In this document: positions 4,159-8,675 of the stretch, piece by piece
Layout of the letters: each line of letters begins with the position of its first letter
How positions within the stretch are numbered: the stretch's first letter is position 1
Origin: a bacterium
GTDB lineage: Bacteria > UBP18 > UBA7526
Direction: 5' to 3'
DNA: 8,675 nt
Assembly (NCBI GenBank): GCA_030619985.1
Contig: JAUXAI010000052.1
Coordinates: 1-8,675, forward strand
Program-made: the position numbers and the translations under genes
The notes under the pieces: generated by a model
Told to the model about the DNA's origin: nothing
Database searches by the model: none
The model's input: the letters and a program-made list of their open reading frames with translations, nothing else

Positions 4159-4317
4159 GTGAGGAAGGAACAAATAGGCAAAATAATTTTTAGTAAAGTA
4201 TTGGAGATGCCCTTAGCAAAGTATCTCATCTATGTTGAGAAAATAATAGAGGGAACAATAAAGCCTTTTTCAACCCACAAGTCTGTAAAAAAAAATTATT
4301 TTATGCTAAAACAATGA
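4159..4317 (+). CDS. Small ORF, probable displaced N-terminus of the sigma-54/GIY-YIG protein
   Basis: A 52-codon frame from GTG 4159 (ATG alternative at 4207), including KIIFSKVLEMPLAKYLIYV and KPFSTHKSVKKNYFML. Its TGA (4315-4317) overlaps the ATG of the next frame (4314) as ATGA. No clear ribosome binding site precedes it. The segment before the stop resembles, weakly, the part of sigma-54 that precedes the DNA-binding region, where the following ORF picks up with IKDGTLCFEV. A one-base shift at the A9 run (4287-4295) or the AAAA at 4308-4311 would join the two frames. So this is either a translationally coupled partner, a slippage-expressed N-terminus, or the broken start of a decaying gene. 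Identification is tentative. Confidence 0.4.
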   Translation: MRKEQIGKIIFSKVLEMPLAKYLIYVEKIIEGTIKPFSTHKSVKKNYFMLKQ

Positions 4318-5186
4318 TTAAAGATGGAACTCTATGTTTCGAGGTTTCAGATAAACGCTTAGAAAATATCTATTCGACTCAAAATTGTACTGAGAATAAA
4401 ATAATATGTTCATTGAAATGGATTAACACCAGAAATAAATTTTCTCTACATATTTTAAAAAGCCTCTTTCGTTATCAAAATAAATATTGGTTTTCTGGCA
4501 AAGAGACAGATCTAAAACCTTTGACCTTAAAACAATTCTTATTCTTATACCCACTAAAATATCTTGATCAAACTCGACTTTCAAGGTTAATTTCAAATTT
4601 ATTGGTTATGAATCCTCAAAATTGGGTTATTAATCTTAAAAGTTTATTTATATCAAAGAAAAAATATCACTCATACCTTGTTAAAGAATTAGTTAGGGGT
4701 AACGAAGATGCCTTGAAAGATAAGGAGATTCAACGCCTATTAGCTCAAAAAGGAGTATATTTATCCCTTAGAACGATATGTAATTGCAGAAAATTGCTTA
4801 ATATCCCTAACTATAAGGAAAGAACCACTTATTGTTATGAAAAGGATATAACTTTTAGTGATTACATGATGTTATTAAAAAAATATTTAAATAAAATTCC
4901 AACTGAAACTGGAACTTATGAATTAAGCATTTCATCAAAAATTAATTACCTGAACTACAAAAGTAATGTTCTATATATAGGTTCTTCCAAAAATCTGCGA
5001 AAGCGGATAACAAACTATTTTGGTAATAAATTAAAAAATAATCGTTTGAGTAAATTTATCAATAATTACGATGTATTCTTGCGTTTTTGTCTAAACCAAA
5101 ATTACATCTTAGTAGAAAAAAAGCTCCTTAAGAATTTTAAGAACATTTATGGAGAGTTACCAAAGGCTAACAGTTTAGGAGGATAA
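4314..5186 (+). CDS. Sigma-54-like DNA-binding region fused to a GIY-YIG endonuclease
   Basis: A 290-residue protein with two recognisable parts. Residues about 1-170 follow the C-terminal third of sigma-54 (RpoN) step by step: SLKWINTRN (33-41) matches AKWLIKSLESRN, LKPLTLKQF (67-75) matches the start of the HTH region, and SRLISNLLVMNPQNWVINLK (90-109) matches SRVTTQKYLHSPRGIFELK. LVKELVRGNED and QRLLAQKGV match the stretch leading to the RpoN box, which here reads SLRTICNCRK (151-160) instead of ARRTVAKYRE. Residues about 198-290 are a GIY-YIG nuclease: GTY (200-202), YIG (221-223), arginines 229/231, probable catalytic E268 and N286. Activator-contacting region I and most of the core-binding domain are absent, so it is not a working sigma factor. 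I infer that the HTH steers the nuclease to a site. The ATG lacks a good ribosome site and overlaps the upstream TGA. Confidence 0.78.
   Translation: MIKDGTLCFEVSDKRLENIYSTQNCTENKIICSLKWINTRNKFSLHILKSLFRYQNKYWFSGKETDLKPLTLKQFLFLYPLKYLDQTRLSRLISNLLVMNPQNWVINLKSLFISKKKYHSYLVKELVRGNEDALKDKEIQRLLAQKGVYLSLRTICNCRKLLNIPNYKERTTYCYEKDITFSDYMMLLKKYLNKIPTETGTYELSISSKINYLNYKSNVLYIGSSKNLRKRITNYFGNKLKNNRLSKFINNYDVFLRFCLNQNYILVEKKLLKNFKNIYGELPKANSLGG
5177..5182 (+). promoter_or_regulatory. Ribosome binding site for the kinase half, inside the endonuclease ORF
   Basis: AGGAGG lies within the last glycine codons of the endonuclease gene, six bases before ATG 5189. It fixes the start of the kinase half. It also shows that the insert, not the original gene, provides the translation signal for the downstream half of the split kinase. 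Confidence 0.8.
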
Positions 5187-5188
5187 TT

Positions 5189-6097
5189 ATGGAAAAGAAT
5201 CCAGAAAAAACAGGAGAACTTATTTTGCAATTTGACTCAGCAAGAATATTTTTTGCAGAAGAAGAAGAAGAAGAAGAAGCCAGAACTGTTGTATCGCTTA
5301 AAGACATCACGGAGCGTAAGAAACTTGAGAGAGAACTCATCCAATCCAGCAAGTTAGCCGCCATTGGACAGTTGGCGGGAGGAATTGCCCATGAATTGAA
5401 TAATCCCTTAGTAGGGGTCTTGAATTTCTCCCAACTTCTGCGGGAAAGGATGAAAAAGGACGATCCTAACTCAGAGTATGTGAAGATGATTGAGAGGGGA
5501 GCCTTGCAGTGCCAGAGGATTGTAAGGGGTCTTTTGACTTTCTCGCGTCAAGATAGAGAACCCTTCCAGCCCACAGATGTAAATAAGAGTATCCAAGAGG
5601 CCTTGCTTCTGGCGGAAACTCAAATAAAACTTCAGAAGATAAAGGTAGAGTGCCATTTCGACTCTAATTTACCAAAGATAATGGGAAGCGCCAATCAGCT
5701 GCAACAGATGGCTTTAAATATGATTATCAATGCCCGAGATGCCATGCCCCAAGGAGGGAGCCTGACAATTATCACCAGACTTCGCAGTCAGGGATTAAAG
5801 AGGGGCTCCGCCCCAGCCTCCGGCTCGGAAAGCCTCCAGGCTCGGAGAGAGGGGGCTCTGCCCCGGAGGGAACTCATCGAAGTGATATTTCAAGATACAG
5901 GAGCAGGAATGACAAGGGAAGAAATGATTAGGGTCTTTGATCCCTTCTTTACTACTAAGAAAGCAGGCCGAGGAACGGGTTTGGGTCTGGCTATTAGTTA
6001 TGGAATTATAAAGAATCATGGAGGCGATATAAGGGTAGATAGTGAAAAAGGCAAAGGAACCACCTTTACCATTGTGCTTCCCGTGACAAAGAAATAA
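5189..6097 (+). CDS. Histidine kinase, C-terminal part of the split PAS kinase
   Basis: A 302-residue cytoplasmic kinase. It opens with the last strands of a PAS domain (GELILQFDSARIFF ... SLKDITERK, 9-44), complementing the half domain that ends the sensor gene at 4156. It then has a HisKA dimerisation helix with phospho-accepting H68 (AHELNNPL), an N box NMIINARDAM (177-186), G1 DTGAGM (236-241), F box FDPFFTTK (250-257) and G2 GRGTGLGLAI (260-269). All motifs needed for autophosphorylation are present. Two oddities: seven glutamates encoded by a GAA repeat (24-30), and about 24 extra residues (202-226) encoded by a GC-rich palindromic block between N and G1 boxes. Likely phospho-acceptor partners are the receivers encoded at 6667 and 7488. 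Start choice rests on AGGAGG at 5177-5182. Confidence 0.92.
   Translation: MEKNPEKTGELILQFDSARIFFAEEEEEEEARTVVSLKDITERKKLERELIQSSKLAAIGQLAGGIAHELNNPLVGVLNFSQLLRERMKKDDPNSEYVKMIERGALQCQRIVRGLLTFSRQDREPFQPTDVNKSIQEALLLAETQIKLQKIKVECHFDSNLPKIMGSANQLQQMALNMIINARDAMPQGGSLTIITRLRSQGLKRGSAPASGSESLQARREGALPRRELIEVIFQDTGAGMTREEMIRVFDPFFTTKKAGRGTGLGLAISYGIIKNHGGDIRVDSEKGKGTTFTIVLPVTKK
5258..5278 (+). repeat. (GAA)7 trinucleotide tract in the kinase half
   Basis: Seven perfect GAA codons in a row encode E24-E30, in a loop between the late strands of the split PAS domain. Length changes by slippage would add or remove glutamates without shifting frame. Confidence 0.9.
5802..5864 (+). repeat. GC-rich palindromic cluster inserted in frame in the kinase
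   Basis: Four small hairpins in 63 bases: ggggc-tcc-gcccc (5802-5814), agcc-tcc-ggct (5815-5825), agcct-cc-aggct (5831-5842) and ggggc-tct-gcccc (5852-5864). The two inner units are also direct repeats (gcctccggctcgga 5816-5829, gcctccaggctcgga 5832-5846). The outer two are near-identical and can pair with each other. It is far richer in GC than its surroundings and stays open in the kinase frame. It encodes about 24 residues, rich in G, S, A and R, between the N and G1 boxes, where kinases normally have a short turn. It resembles coding palindromic repeats in form; the family is not identified. Confidence 0.75.
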
Positions 6098-6180: not shown

Positions 6181-6606
6181 ATGGAAGGAAAAAAGAGAAT
6201 CACGAGCTTTAGAGATTTAGAGGTATACCAGAATACTTATAATGCTATGCTAATTGTGATGAAAGAAATTGTGCCTAAATTACCTGATAACGAAAAATAC
6301 GATTTAAAGGACCAATCGAGTCGTGCATGTAAAGCAATACCAAGATTAATAGCAGAAGGCTATGCTAAACGTCATCAAAAAGCAGGCTTTCAAAAATATA
6401 TCGATGACGCTATGGGTGAATGTAACGAGATGGTTGTTAGTTTAAGTCAGTGTAGAGATATTTATCCTACATATGTAAATGTAAAACGTTGCGATGAGTT
6501 AATTGATGTATATGATAAATCAGGAAGACAGCTTTATAAATTAGGTAACGCTTGGACAAATTTTAAAGACGATAGACGTAACCATAAGACGAAACGGGCA
6601 TCGTAA
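6181..6606 (+). CDS. Four-helix-bundle protein, 23S rRNA intervening-sequence protein (S23/IVP) family
   Basis: A 141-residue soluble, mostly helical protein. The N-terminal SFRDLEVYQNTYNAML is the family hallmark, followed by LKDQSSRACKAIPRLIAEGYAKR (helix 2 with the conserved AEG), FQKYIDDAMGECNEMVVSL (helix 3) and a last helix near 100-130. Members form pentamer-like bundles and are encoded in intervening sequences of 23S rRNA in Leptospira and Coxiella, and also at scattered chromosomal sites; their biochemical role is unsettled. Here there is no rRNA around it. Instead it sits inside inverted repeats (6100-6650) between a kinase and its regulator, and the right inner repeat arm covers its last codons. 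The ribosome site is weak. Codon use is more AT-rich than that of the kinase. The family call is strong; function is unknown. Confidence 0.88.
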   Translation: MEGKKRITSFRDLEVYQNTYNAMLIVMKEIVPKLPDNEKYDLKDQSSRACKAIPRLIAEGYAKRHQKAGFQKYIDDAMGECNEMVVSLSQCRDIYPTYVNVKRCDELIDVYDKSGRQLYKLGNAWTNFKDDRRNHKTKRAS

Positions 6607-6666: not shown

Positions 6667-7182
6667 ATGGCTAAGGCGAAGATATTAGTGGTAGATGACG
6701 AGGCCTATACCAGGGTCTTTTTCTATGAATTGTTAAAAGAAAAAGGATATAAGGTTAGCATTGTAGAGGATGGAAGAAGAGCAATTGAGACTGCGAAAAA
6801 AGGATCCTTTGATCTCGTTTTTTTGGATGTAAGAATGCCGGACATTGATGGGGTAGAGACCTGCAAAGCAATTAAGAAGACCAGTCCTAAGACGATCGTC
6901 ATTATGATGAGCGGCTACCCGGTTGAAGATGAGGTGAGAGAGGCGCTAAAATTGGGTGCCTCTGATTATGTTGCCAAGCCATTTAATCCAGATGAGATAA
7001 TGGGTATTACCCAGGTGGCTGAATATCTCAATATCCATAGGATGACCCTTTATGACTTAGTCCGAACGAGAAAAATTCCGGCCTTCAAAGTGGGCGGCCA
7101 GTGGCGCTTCAGAAAGGAGTTATTGGAGAAGTGGATTACTACTGAGACTAAGAGGCGGGAGAAGCATTCTAATAAGAAATAA
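6667..7182 (+). CDS. Response regulator: receiver domain fused to an HTH_17 DNA-binding domain
   Basis: A 171-residue protein. The receiver (about 1-112) has D10/D11, phospho-accepting D54 (FLDVRMP), S82 and K104 (KPF), so it should accept phosphate from the kinase encoded upstream. It is cut short at DEIM (109-112), where helix alpha-5 should begin, and continues directly into an excisionase/MerR-like winged helix (113-158; TQVAEYLNIHRMTLYDLV, then KIPAFKVGGQWRFRK). The HTH is closely related to the stand-alone protein encoded at 7294. The likely role is phosphorylation-controlled DNA binding. ATG 6667 has AAGGGG at 6653-6658. It would adjoin the kinase gene if the 551-bp element were absent. 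Missing alpha-5 is unusual, because that face usually makes receiver dimers. Confidence 0.9.
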   Translation: MAKAKILVVDDEAYTRVFFYELLKEKGYKVSIVEDGRRAIETAKKGSFDLVFLDVRMPDIDGVETCKAIKKTSPKTIVIMMSGYPVEDEVREALKLGASDYVAKPFNPDEIMGITQVAEYLNIHRMTLYDLVRTRKIPAFKVGGQWRFRKELLEKWITTETKRREKHSNKK

Positions 7183-7222
7183 ATCAAATCGTTCAATTTT
7201 ACTTAATAGTTTATAAAAATAC

Positions 7223-7251
7223 TTGACATAGTTAAAAATTTATGTTATTTA
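7223..7251 (+). promoter_or_regulatory. Possible promoter for the HTH_17 / HD-GYP pair
   Basis: A perfect TTGACA (7223-7228) is followed after 17 bp by TATTTA, only three of six -10 matches, in a very AT-rich 111-bp gap before the gene at 7294. It could drive the HTH and HD-GYP genes apart from the upstream operon. The weak -10 makes this uncertain. Confidence 0.4.
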
Positions 7252-7293
7252 TAAAAGAAGGGTCTCATCCTTACTTCATATAAGAGAGGAGTA

Positions 7294-7488
7294 ATGGCAG
7301 ATAAGATAATGACTGTTAAAGAGGTGGCTAAGTATTTAGATGTCCACCCTATGACCCTCTATAGGTTAGCCAGAGAAGGAAAGATCCCAGCCTTTAAGAT
7401 CGGTGGTCAATGGAGGTTCCAGAAAAAGGCCTTAGACAGATGGGTAGCCCAAAGCATGAATAAAAATTATAATTCTGAGGAGAAATAA
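7294..7488 (+). CDS. Stand-alone HTH_17 (excisionase/MerR-like) DNA-binding protein
   Basis: A 64-residue protein that is almost entirely one winged-helix module: IMTVKEVAKYLDVHPMTLYR is the helix-turn-helix and KIPAFKIGGQWRFQKKALDR the wing and last helix. It matches residues 110-157 of the response regulator encoded at 6667 at most positions, so the two probably bind related sites; the small one could compete or form mixed complexes. Proteins of this family act as excisionases or small transcription factors, but nothing nearby is an integrase. It has AGGAG just before its ATG. Its stop overlaps the next start (TAATG at 7486-7490), implying translational coupling to the HD-GYP gene. Confidence 0.85.
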   Translation: MADKIMTVKEVAKYLDVHPMTLYRLAREGKIPAFKIGGQWRFQKKALDRWVAQSMNKNYNSEEK

Positions 7489-8675
7489 TGGTTGAGTTAG
7501 CTAATATTTATAAGACAAAGAAAGAGAAAAAAGCTTTTCATCTCGTCTTTCTCGATGTCAGAATGCCGGGCATGAATGGGGTGGAGACCTGTAGGGCGAT
7601 AAGGGAGATCGATCCCCGAATAATCATTATTATGATCAGCGCCTATGCGGTAGAGAAGGAGGTGGAGGAGGCTCAGAGGCTGGGTGCCCTGGACTTTCTC
7701 TCCAAGCCCTTTGATGTGAAGAGAATATTCAGTATCGTGGAGAGCGTGCGGAGTAGAAAGGGAGTGAGGAGACTGAGGATCTTAGTGGTGGATGATGAGA
7801 CCTACACCAGGGTATTTATGAAGGAACTCTTGGAAGGAAAGGGGCATGAGGTTGTCACCGTAGAGGATGGATATAGAGCACTCGAAGTTCTAAAGGGGGC
7901 TGTGACAATAGAGAGAAGGAAAGAGGTGGAGAGAGAGGCCTTAGTTTTTCGGGAAGGAGTTGCCCGGCAAGTGAAGGAGAGGGAGGAAAGAGAGAAACTC
8001 TCCCAGGCCCTCTATGATAAGGCAATAGTGACCGTAAAGAAGGTATTAAGAGAGGCAGAGGAAGGGAATATAGAGAGCGGCCATGAGGTTAGCAAGATAG
8101 TGGAAGAGATGGTCACCCTTTTATCCTCAGGGGATAATACCCTGGTCGTCTTAGCGAATAAGAGGGCCACGGAAAAGAACTACCTCTATGCCCACTCAGT
8201 AAATGTCGCCATCCTCTCCATTAAGGTCAGTCTAGGATTGGACTATGAGAGGGATAAGTTAATCGATTTAGGGGTAGCGGCCCTCCTCCATGACGTGGGG
8301 ATGGTGAAGGTCATGGAGATTGCTAAATTACCCAGGAGGTTGACTCCCAGGGAGTATGAGAAGATAAAGAAGCATCCCATATATGGGAAAGAGATCTTAG
8401 AAAAAGTGAGGGATATCTCAAAGTCAGCCATCCAGACCGCCTATCAGCAGCATGAGAGATTCAGGGGCCAGGGCTATCCAGAAGGAATAAGAGCCTATAA
8501 GATAAATGGGTATGCCCAGATCGTGGGCCTGGTGGATGTCTATGAGGCATTGACCCACCCTCGAGTCTATAGGAAGAGGTTCCCGCCCCATGAGGCCATG
8601 AGGATGATTGTTGACTCCTCAAGGGACCTCTTTTCCTTACACACAATAAAGGAATTGATGAGGGAACTGGGCACC
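7488..8675 (+). CDS. Receiver/HD-GYP protein with permuted receiver halves (3' end cut by the window)
   Basis: An open frame of 396 codons running off the window. Residues 17-88 are the C-terminal half of a receiver (D23 in FLDVRMP, S51, K73 in KPF) without strands 1-2. Residues 95-137 are the N-terminal half of a receiver (LRILVVDDETYTRVF, D102/D103) without the phospho-acceptor half. A charged helical linker follows (about 138-200). Then comes an HD-GYP domain: H236, H268-D269 (LLHDVG), H296, QQHERFRGQGYP (319-331) and D350 (VDVYEAL). HD-GYP enzymes hydrolyse cyclic di-GMP. The HHE before GYP reads QHE here. ATG 7488 overlaps the upstream stop and has GAGGAG about six bases before it; a stop at 7476 in this frame rules out a longer N-terminus. 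It is a likely output of the same phosphorelay. Confidence 0.88.
   Translation, partial: MVELANIYKTKKEKKAFHLVFLDVRMPGMNGVETCRAIREIDPRIIIIMISAYAVEKEVEEAQRLGALDFLSKPFDVKRIFSIVESVRSRKGVRRLRILVVDDETYTRVFMKELLEGKGHEVVTVEDGYRALEVLKGAVTIERRKEVEREALVFREGVARQVKEREEREKLSQALYDKAIVTVKKVLREAEEGNIESGHEVSKIVEEMVTLLSSGDNTLVVLANKRATEKNYLYAHSVNVAILSIKVSLGLDYERDKLIDLGVAALLHDVGMVKVMEIAKLPRRLTPREYEKIKKHPIYGKEILEKVRDISKSAIQTAYQQHERFRGQGYPEGIRAYKINGYAQIVGLVDVYEALTHPRVYRKRFPPHEAMRMIVDSSRDLFSLHTIKELMRELGT

Follow-up and report, generated by a model that had tools for sequence, protein, structure and literature searches.

A receiver domain with its halves in permuted order on an HD-GYP protein: a likely natural circular permutation kept in two bacterial species

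Few bacterial signalling domains are as common as receivers, which almost without exception share one topology, with the output placed after helix α5. In the described Rec-HD-GYP regulators (the RpfG, PA4781 and NosR type) the receiver precedes a helical linker and an HD-GYP domain. A second described relationship is that of the receivers to the HAD phosphatases: HAD enzymes run an aspartate, a serine or threonine, a lysine and an acidic pair along the chain, which is the order that a permuted receiver would have. HAD and CheY are recognised as a pair that shares one Mg site, the correspondence between the two chains being non-sequential (cited in PMC10400377 from Ridder and Dijkstra 1999). 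We found no natural permuted receiver in the literature that we searched; this search was limited and we do not claim absence elsewhere. Here we show that the two halves of a receiver occur in permuted order on an HD-GYP protein, and that this order is conserved in a second species.

The window, by which we mean the whole 8,675-nucleotide stretch of DNA that was analysed, is a contig (C30) from a 1.25-Mb, 84%-complete assembly. The permuted HD-GYP gene starts with an ATG at 7488 on the plus strand, overlapping the stop codon of the upstream HTH gene (TAATG), and its open reading frame runs off the contig end at 8675. The last 141 bases of the window are the start of contig C46 (a 141-bp overlap), on which the permuted gene ends and its tandem paralogue, an HD-GYP gene with no receiver, comes next. 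The full-length protein of 481 residues could be read in a second species of the same genus (G002), where its gene (G002:C30:15204-16649) lies on a contig of 252 kb among the same neighbours as in the window. The features that concern us are:

5189..6097, plus strand: histidine kinase, candidate phospho-donor for both receivers (HisKA and HATPase_c)
6667..7182, plus strand: canonical receiver fused to an HTH domain (Rec-HTH), the closest relative found for both halves (PF00072 positions 6-113; HTH_17)
7294..7488, plus strand: small excisionase-type HTH gene, its stop overlapping the start of the permuted gene, as also in G002 (HTH_17, E 1.2e-20; TIGR01764)
7488..7535, plus strand: N-terminal 16 residues, similar to the start of the HD-GYP paralogue that lies next downstream and has no receiver (shuffle test)
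7536..7760, plus strand: receiver C-half, β3-α3-β4-α4-β5-α5, residues 17-91, with D23, S51, F70 and K73 (PF00072 positions 39-110; AlphaFold2)
7761..7775, plus strand: link from α5 to β1, residues 92-96 (alignment with G002; AlphaFold2 coil 92-96)
7776..7907, plus strand: receiver N-half, β1-α1-β2-α2, residues 97-140, with D102/D103 (PF00072 positions 1-39; AlphaFold2)
7869..8060, plus strand: predicted to be one unbroken helix, α2 running on in the direction of HD-GYP, residues 128-191 (AlphaFold2 helix 128-191)
8172..8675, plus strand: HD-GYP domain, cut by the contig end (PF13487, HD_5, E 3.8e-24)

Several other genes of the window deserve separate mention. Within the signalling operon, 6181-6606 codes for a 23S rRNA intervening-sequence-type (S23) protein, of which there are about ten genes genome-wide. 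Elsewhere in the window, 89-880 codes for a PaaX-like regulator with a Cas2-like central domain. The 290-residue product of 4314-5186 combines a sigma-54 DNA-binding-domain-like region (including an RpoN-box-like stretch) with a GIY-YIG nuclease domain; its G002 counterpart is 96% identical, and outside the window's family it has two relatives, one in G026 (36% over residues 32-287) and a partial one in G043. At the locus of the kinase (302 residues) G002 instead has three genes, coding for 103, 227 and 466 residues (L040 3143-5628). The window kinase corresponds to the start of the first of these joined to the kinase end of the third, and hence about 1.6 kb has been lost or gained in one lineage.

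The initial annotation had proposed that the protein starting at 7488 begins with receiver strands 3-5 (bearing D23, S51 and K73) and, after a short link, continues with strand 1 to helix 2 (bearing D102/D103), the two halves together holding one full catalytic set. All of these residues and coordinates were confirmed: the active-site codons lie at 7554-7556 (D23), 7638-7640 (S51), 7704-7706 (K73) and 7791-7796 (D102/D103), and all five residues, namely the acidic pair, acceptor aspartate, serine and lysine, are present and unchanged in both species. Pfam recognised Response_reg at residues 13-84 (profile positions 39-110), and positions 1-39 were added by a whole-genome search; on the DNA, positions 39-110 fall at 7524-7739 and are followed by positions 1-39 at 7779-7895, with the same split in G002. 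The two pieces are exactly complementary, with the profile covered once. Likewise, an HMM derived from 21 receivers recovered positions 38-113 (E 5e-29) and then 1-39 (E 7e-10), and yielded no further convincing receiver piece in the six frames of 7183-8675. An in-frame remnant upstream of the ATG was considered and rejected, as only three in-frame codons precede it. When the halves are rejoined in the canonical order they align with the upstream Rec-HTH receiver at a score of 325 with a single one-residue gap, as against 208 in the encoded order, and the Pfam bit score rises from 88 to 99. The N-half alone scores 127 against the same receiver (shuffle maximum 46, n=1000). All five β/α units are present (PF00072 positions 1-110 in two pieces; five strands and five helices in the predicted structure). 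Compared with a CheY-like receiver (PF00072) the domain thus retains all catalytic residues and profile positions and differs in the swapped order of its halves: the canonical β1-to-α5 order is not met, with β3-α5 preceding β1-α2.

The permuted proteins of the two species are 93% identical over 396 residues, and G002 keeps the same half order, the same start/stop overlap and collinear flanking genes. Across the receiver halves the two genes differ by 12 substitutions, 7 synonymous and 5 non-synonymous, over 80 and 268 sites respectively (P 0.009 against neutrality), with dN/dS of 0.22 and 0.15 in the two halves. The C-half alone also departs from neutrality (P 0.03); the N-half alone does not do so significantly (2 synonymous, 1 non-synonymous; P 0.15). 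Residues 1-145 contain seven amino-acid differences, of which four lie around the link at 88-96, the most variable stretch. At a dS of about 0.15 the species pair is close and the conservation spans a short distance only, and we take these figures as evidence that purifying selection acts on the whole receiver rather than as proof of it.

A structure was predicted with AlphaFold2 for residues 1-215, using an alignment in which all but two of the rows cover a single half. The model shows one closed α/β domain (pLDDT 91-98 for residues 21-140) in the order β3-α3-β4-α4-β5-α5-β1-α1-β2-α2. Predicted strands lie at 19-23, 46-51 and 69-72 in the C-half and at 97-101 and 121-125 in the N-half, and predicted helices at 31-41, 56-64 and 77-91 in the former and at 105-116 and from 128 onwards in the latter; the link is coil at 92-96 in a block of pLDDT about 95-98. 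Helix α2 is predicted to continue to residue 191, forming a 64-residue helix towards the HD-GYP domain. The halves are accordingly not predicted to be unfolded, but this support is weakened by a control slice taken from a tandem Rec-Rec kinase of another bacterium, which closes about as well (pLDDT 92, pTM 0.85); the model therefore shows feasibility and not proof. In VIA-align comparisons, residues 12-143 match KdsC-type HAD phosphatases as one unit (2p9j: Z 8.9, 115 residues, 2.8 Å), and ordinary receivers superpose on the C-half only (Spo0F: residues 14-90, 1.5 Å). Such a whole-domain superposition is to be expected of a closed 2-1-3-4-5 sheet, if the domain follows HAD enzymes in the order of its catalytic motifs. 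HAD scores of Z near 8-9 are modestly above background and suggestive only, and contacts were not checked on coordinates; HAD was missing among the listed structural matches of the control model, but we draw nothing from this, since a family may match without being listed. The domain resembles the HAD phosphatases (KdsC/YrbI) in the order of nucleophile aspartate, serine/threonine, lysine and acidic pair and, at a score that is merely suggestive of their sequential Rossmannoid topology, in the superposition of its predicted model over the whole domain, whereas no sequence kinship with them was found and it lacks the second aspartate of their motif I.

In the placement of a receiver N-terminal to a helical linker and HD-GYP domain the protein is like the Rec-HD-GYP regulators, and its best NCBIfam match is the NosR-family c-di-GMP phosphodiesterase, far below cut-off. 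It differs from them in that its receiver is permuted and is predicted to exit via α2 rather than α5, and in having glutamine and methionine at two HD-GYP active-site positions. Both HD and GYP motifs are present (HDVGM...QHERFRGQGYP), but the usual full metal-ligand set is not met: glutamine takes the place of the first histidine of HHExxDGxGYP (QHE versus HHE), and methionine replaces the lysine of HDxGK (HDVGM). Because of these substitutions, which are shared with the paralogues (QHE and HDVGM occur in all five copies of the subfamily found in the genus), enzymatic activity of the HD-GYP domain is probable without being certain. Some distant relatives share EHE or HDIGM.

The interpretation that we consider likely is that of a single-domain natural circular permutation in a response regulator of the Rec-HD-GYP type, in which the fold and long helix are model predictions and the phosphorylation, kinase and output are inferred. 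In this view, the break in the receiver would lie in the α2-β3 loop, the short link would connect α5 to β1, and both halves of one chain would fold as a single five-stranded receiver with the sheet order 2-1-3-4-5. The Mg/phosphate pocket would then be complete (D102/D103, D23 as the phospho-acceptor, S51 and K73), such that D23 should accept phosphate, most simply from the histidine kinase encoded four genes upstream. Helix α1 (YTRVF..ELL..KG) is nearly the same in the permuted and the upstream Rec-HTH receivers, and α1 is one of the main kinase-contact helices in known systems; we infer from this near-identity that both receivers may answer to one kinase. Given that the chain leaves from α2, the α4-β5-α5 face may be left free and the signal may travel through the long helix; it would exit to the HD-GYP domain by α2 and not by α5 as in ordinary receivers, the putative output being altered hydrolysis of c-di-GMP or a related cyclic dinucleotide. 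The initial annotation had offered one permuted domain driving HD-GYP, with two broken receivers as the alternative. The single domain is supported by the complementarity of the pieces, their conservation and selection, the absence of leftovers and the closed predicted fold; phosphorylation and control of HD-GYP remain inferences only.

One rival explanation is a domain-swapped receiver, in which the C-half would complete the N-half of a partner in an HD-GYP dimer and the site would exist in the dimer only. Such swaps have been described for CheY and for a receiver from a plant (cited in PMC9815098), and the long predicted helix would be suited to holding a dimer. Against this, the five-residue link is confidently predicted in a closed single chain, albeit in a model of a single chain only, and we regard the swap as unlikely. 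It is similarly improbable that recombination left the HD-GYP protein with two broken receivers, tolerated as an inert extension at its N-terminus. In favour of this, tandem receivers are common, a slice of an ordinary tandem pair has the same order and also folds in silico, and selection on the N-half alone is unproven. However, the two pieces are exactly complementary, with no profile positions missing or doubled, the active-site residues are all kept, the receiver taken whole shows purifying selection, and the homologue search, in which G002 kept the same order and the nearest paralogues lacked receivers, revealed no family relative with two complete receivers on HD-GYP. A third possibility, which we hold to be very unlikely, is that the domain is not a phospho-acceptor switch and has become either a HAD-like phosphatase or a pseudo-receiver that binds phosphate. 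Speaking for it are the structural match and catalytic motifs that run D, S/T, K, DD, like those of HAD enzymes; however, the domain is 51-65% identical to the canonical receiver next door, Arg25 stands in place of the second aspartate of motif I (nucleophile +2), such that DxD is not met (D23-V-R25), and Pfam gives no HAD family match. Finally, although both genomes are fragmented assemblies, an assembly or frameshift artefact is all but ruled out by the same order on separate contigs of two species, a frame open from start to stop and collinear flanking genes.

Tandem-receiver proteins (the PleD type and Rec-Rec kinases) contain the same C-half/N-half junction but differ in having two complete receivers; the structural alignment with PleD spans 141 columns at 16.5 Å rmsd. 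In a search of 386 genomes with a permuted-order profile the window and G002 came out on top, and the other full-order matches whose loci were inspected proved to be tandem complete receivers, a complete with a partial receiver, or read-through of a stop into a neighbour, none of them permuted. Limited candidates were scored per genome in this search and a limited list was shown, and rare cases could thus be missed. Scans of viruses, plasmids and phages gave no full match in permuted order, and a scan of genome contigs with the two-species alignment, run on poor peptide patterns, returned only canonical or tandem receivers and no orthologue. One candidate that looked permuted (G029:C114) was rejected as a canonical receiver with a chance tail.

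As to the origin of the permuted receiver, none of the nearest HD-GYP relatives has a receiver, neither the tandem paralogue of either species nor the homologue in G001. The first 15 or so residues of these proteins (C46, G002 and G001) are similar to the 16 that open the permuted protein (P about 0.001-0.002 versus shuffles), from which we infer that a receiver was inserted between the N-terminal peptide and the helical linker of an HD-GYP protein. Similarity at the DNA level between the 5' end of the permuted gene and the paralogue is not convincing, and this reading hence has no more than moderate support. The N-half is nearest to the receiver of the window's Rec-HTH protein (65% identity; 92/82 tree support), to which the C-half is also closest (51% identity), with the C-half tree unresolved; these relationships suggest that the donor was similar to the neighbouring Rec-HTH receiver. 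A plausible, if purely inferential, route would start from a tandem duplication of that receiver, out of which an internal slice was taken. In another genome, a 187-residue frame (L111, G151:C79) contains a complete receiver and only the N-half of a second (profile positions 1-47). It may represent a half-step towards permutation, though a contig cut at that point is not excluded.

Returning to the circularly permuted receiver as our preferred interpretation, a bolder reading would see in it a functional domain with α2 as the output helix and catalytic motifs in the HAD order, that is, a sequence-level example of a single receiver/HAD step; on balance we lean towards this reading, by a narrow margin. 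The rearrangement, being preserved in a second species, is an unusual natural experiment in protein rewiring. If the domain works, phosphorylation would be readable through another helix, and the protein would offer a natural test of the dependence of receiver allostery on chain connectivity. The active site shared by CheY and HAD across a permutation would thereby become testable with a domain that is, by sequence, of plain receiver ancestry.
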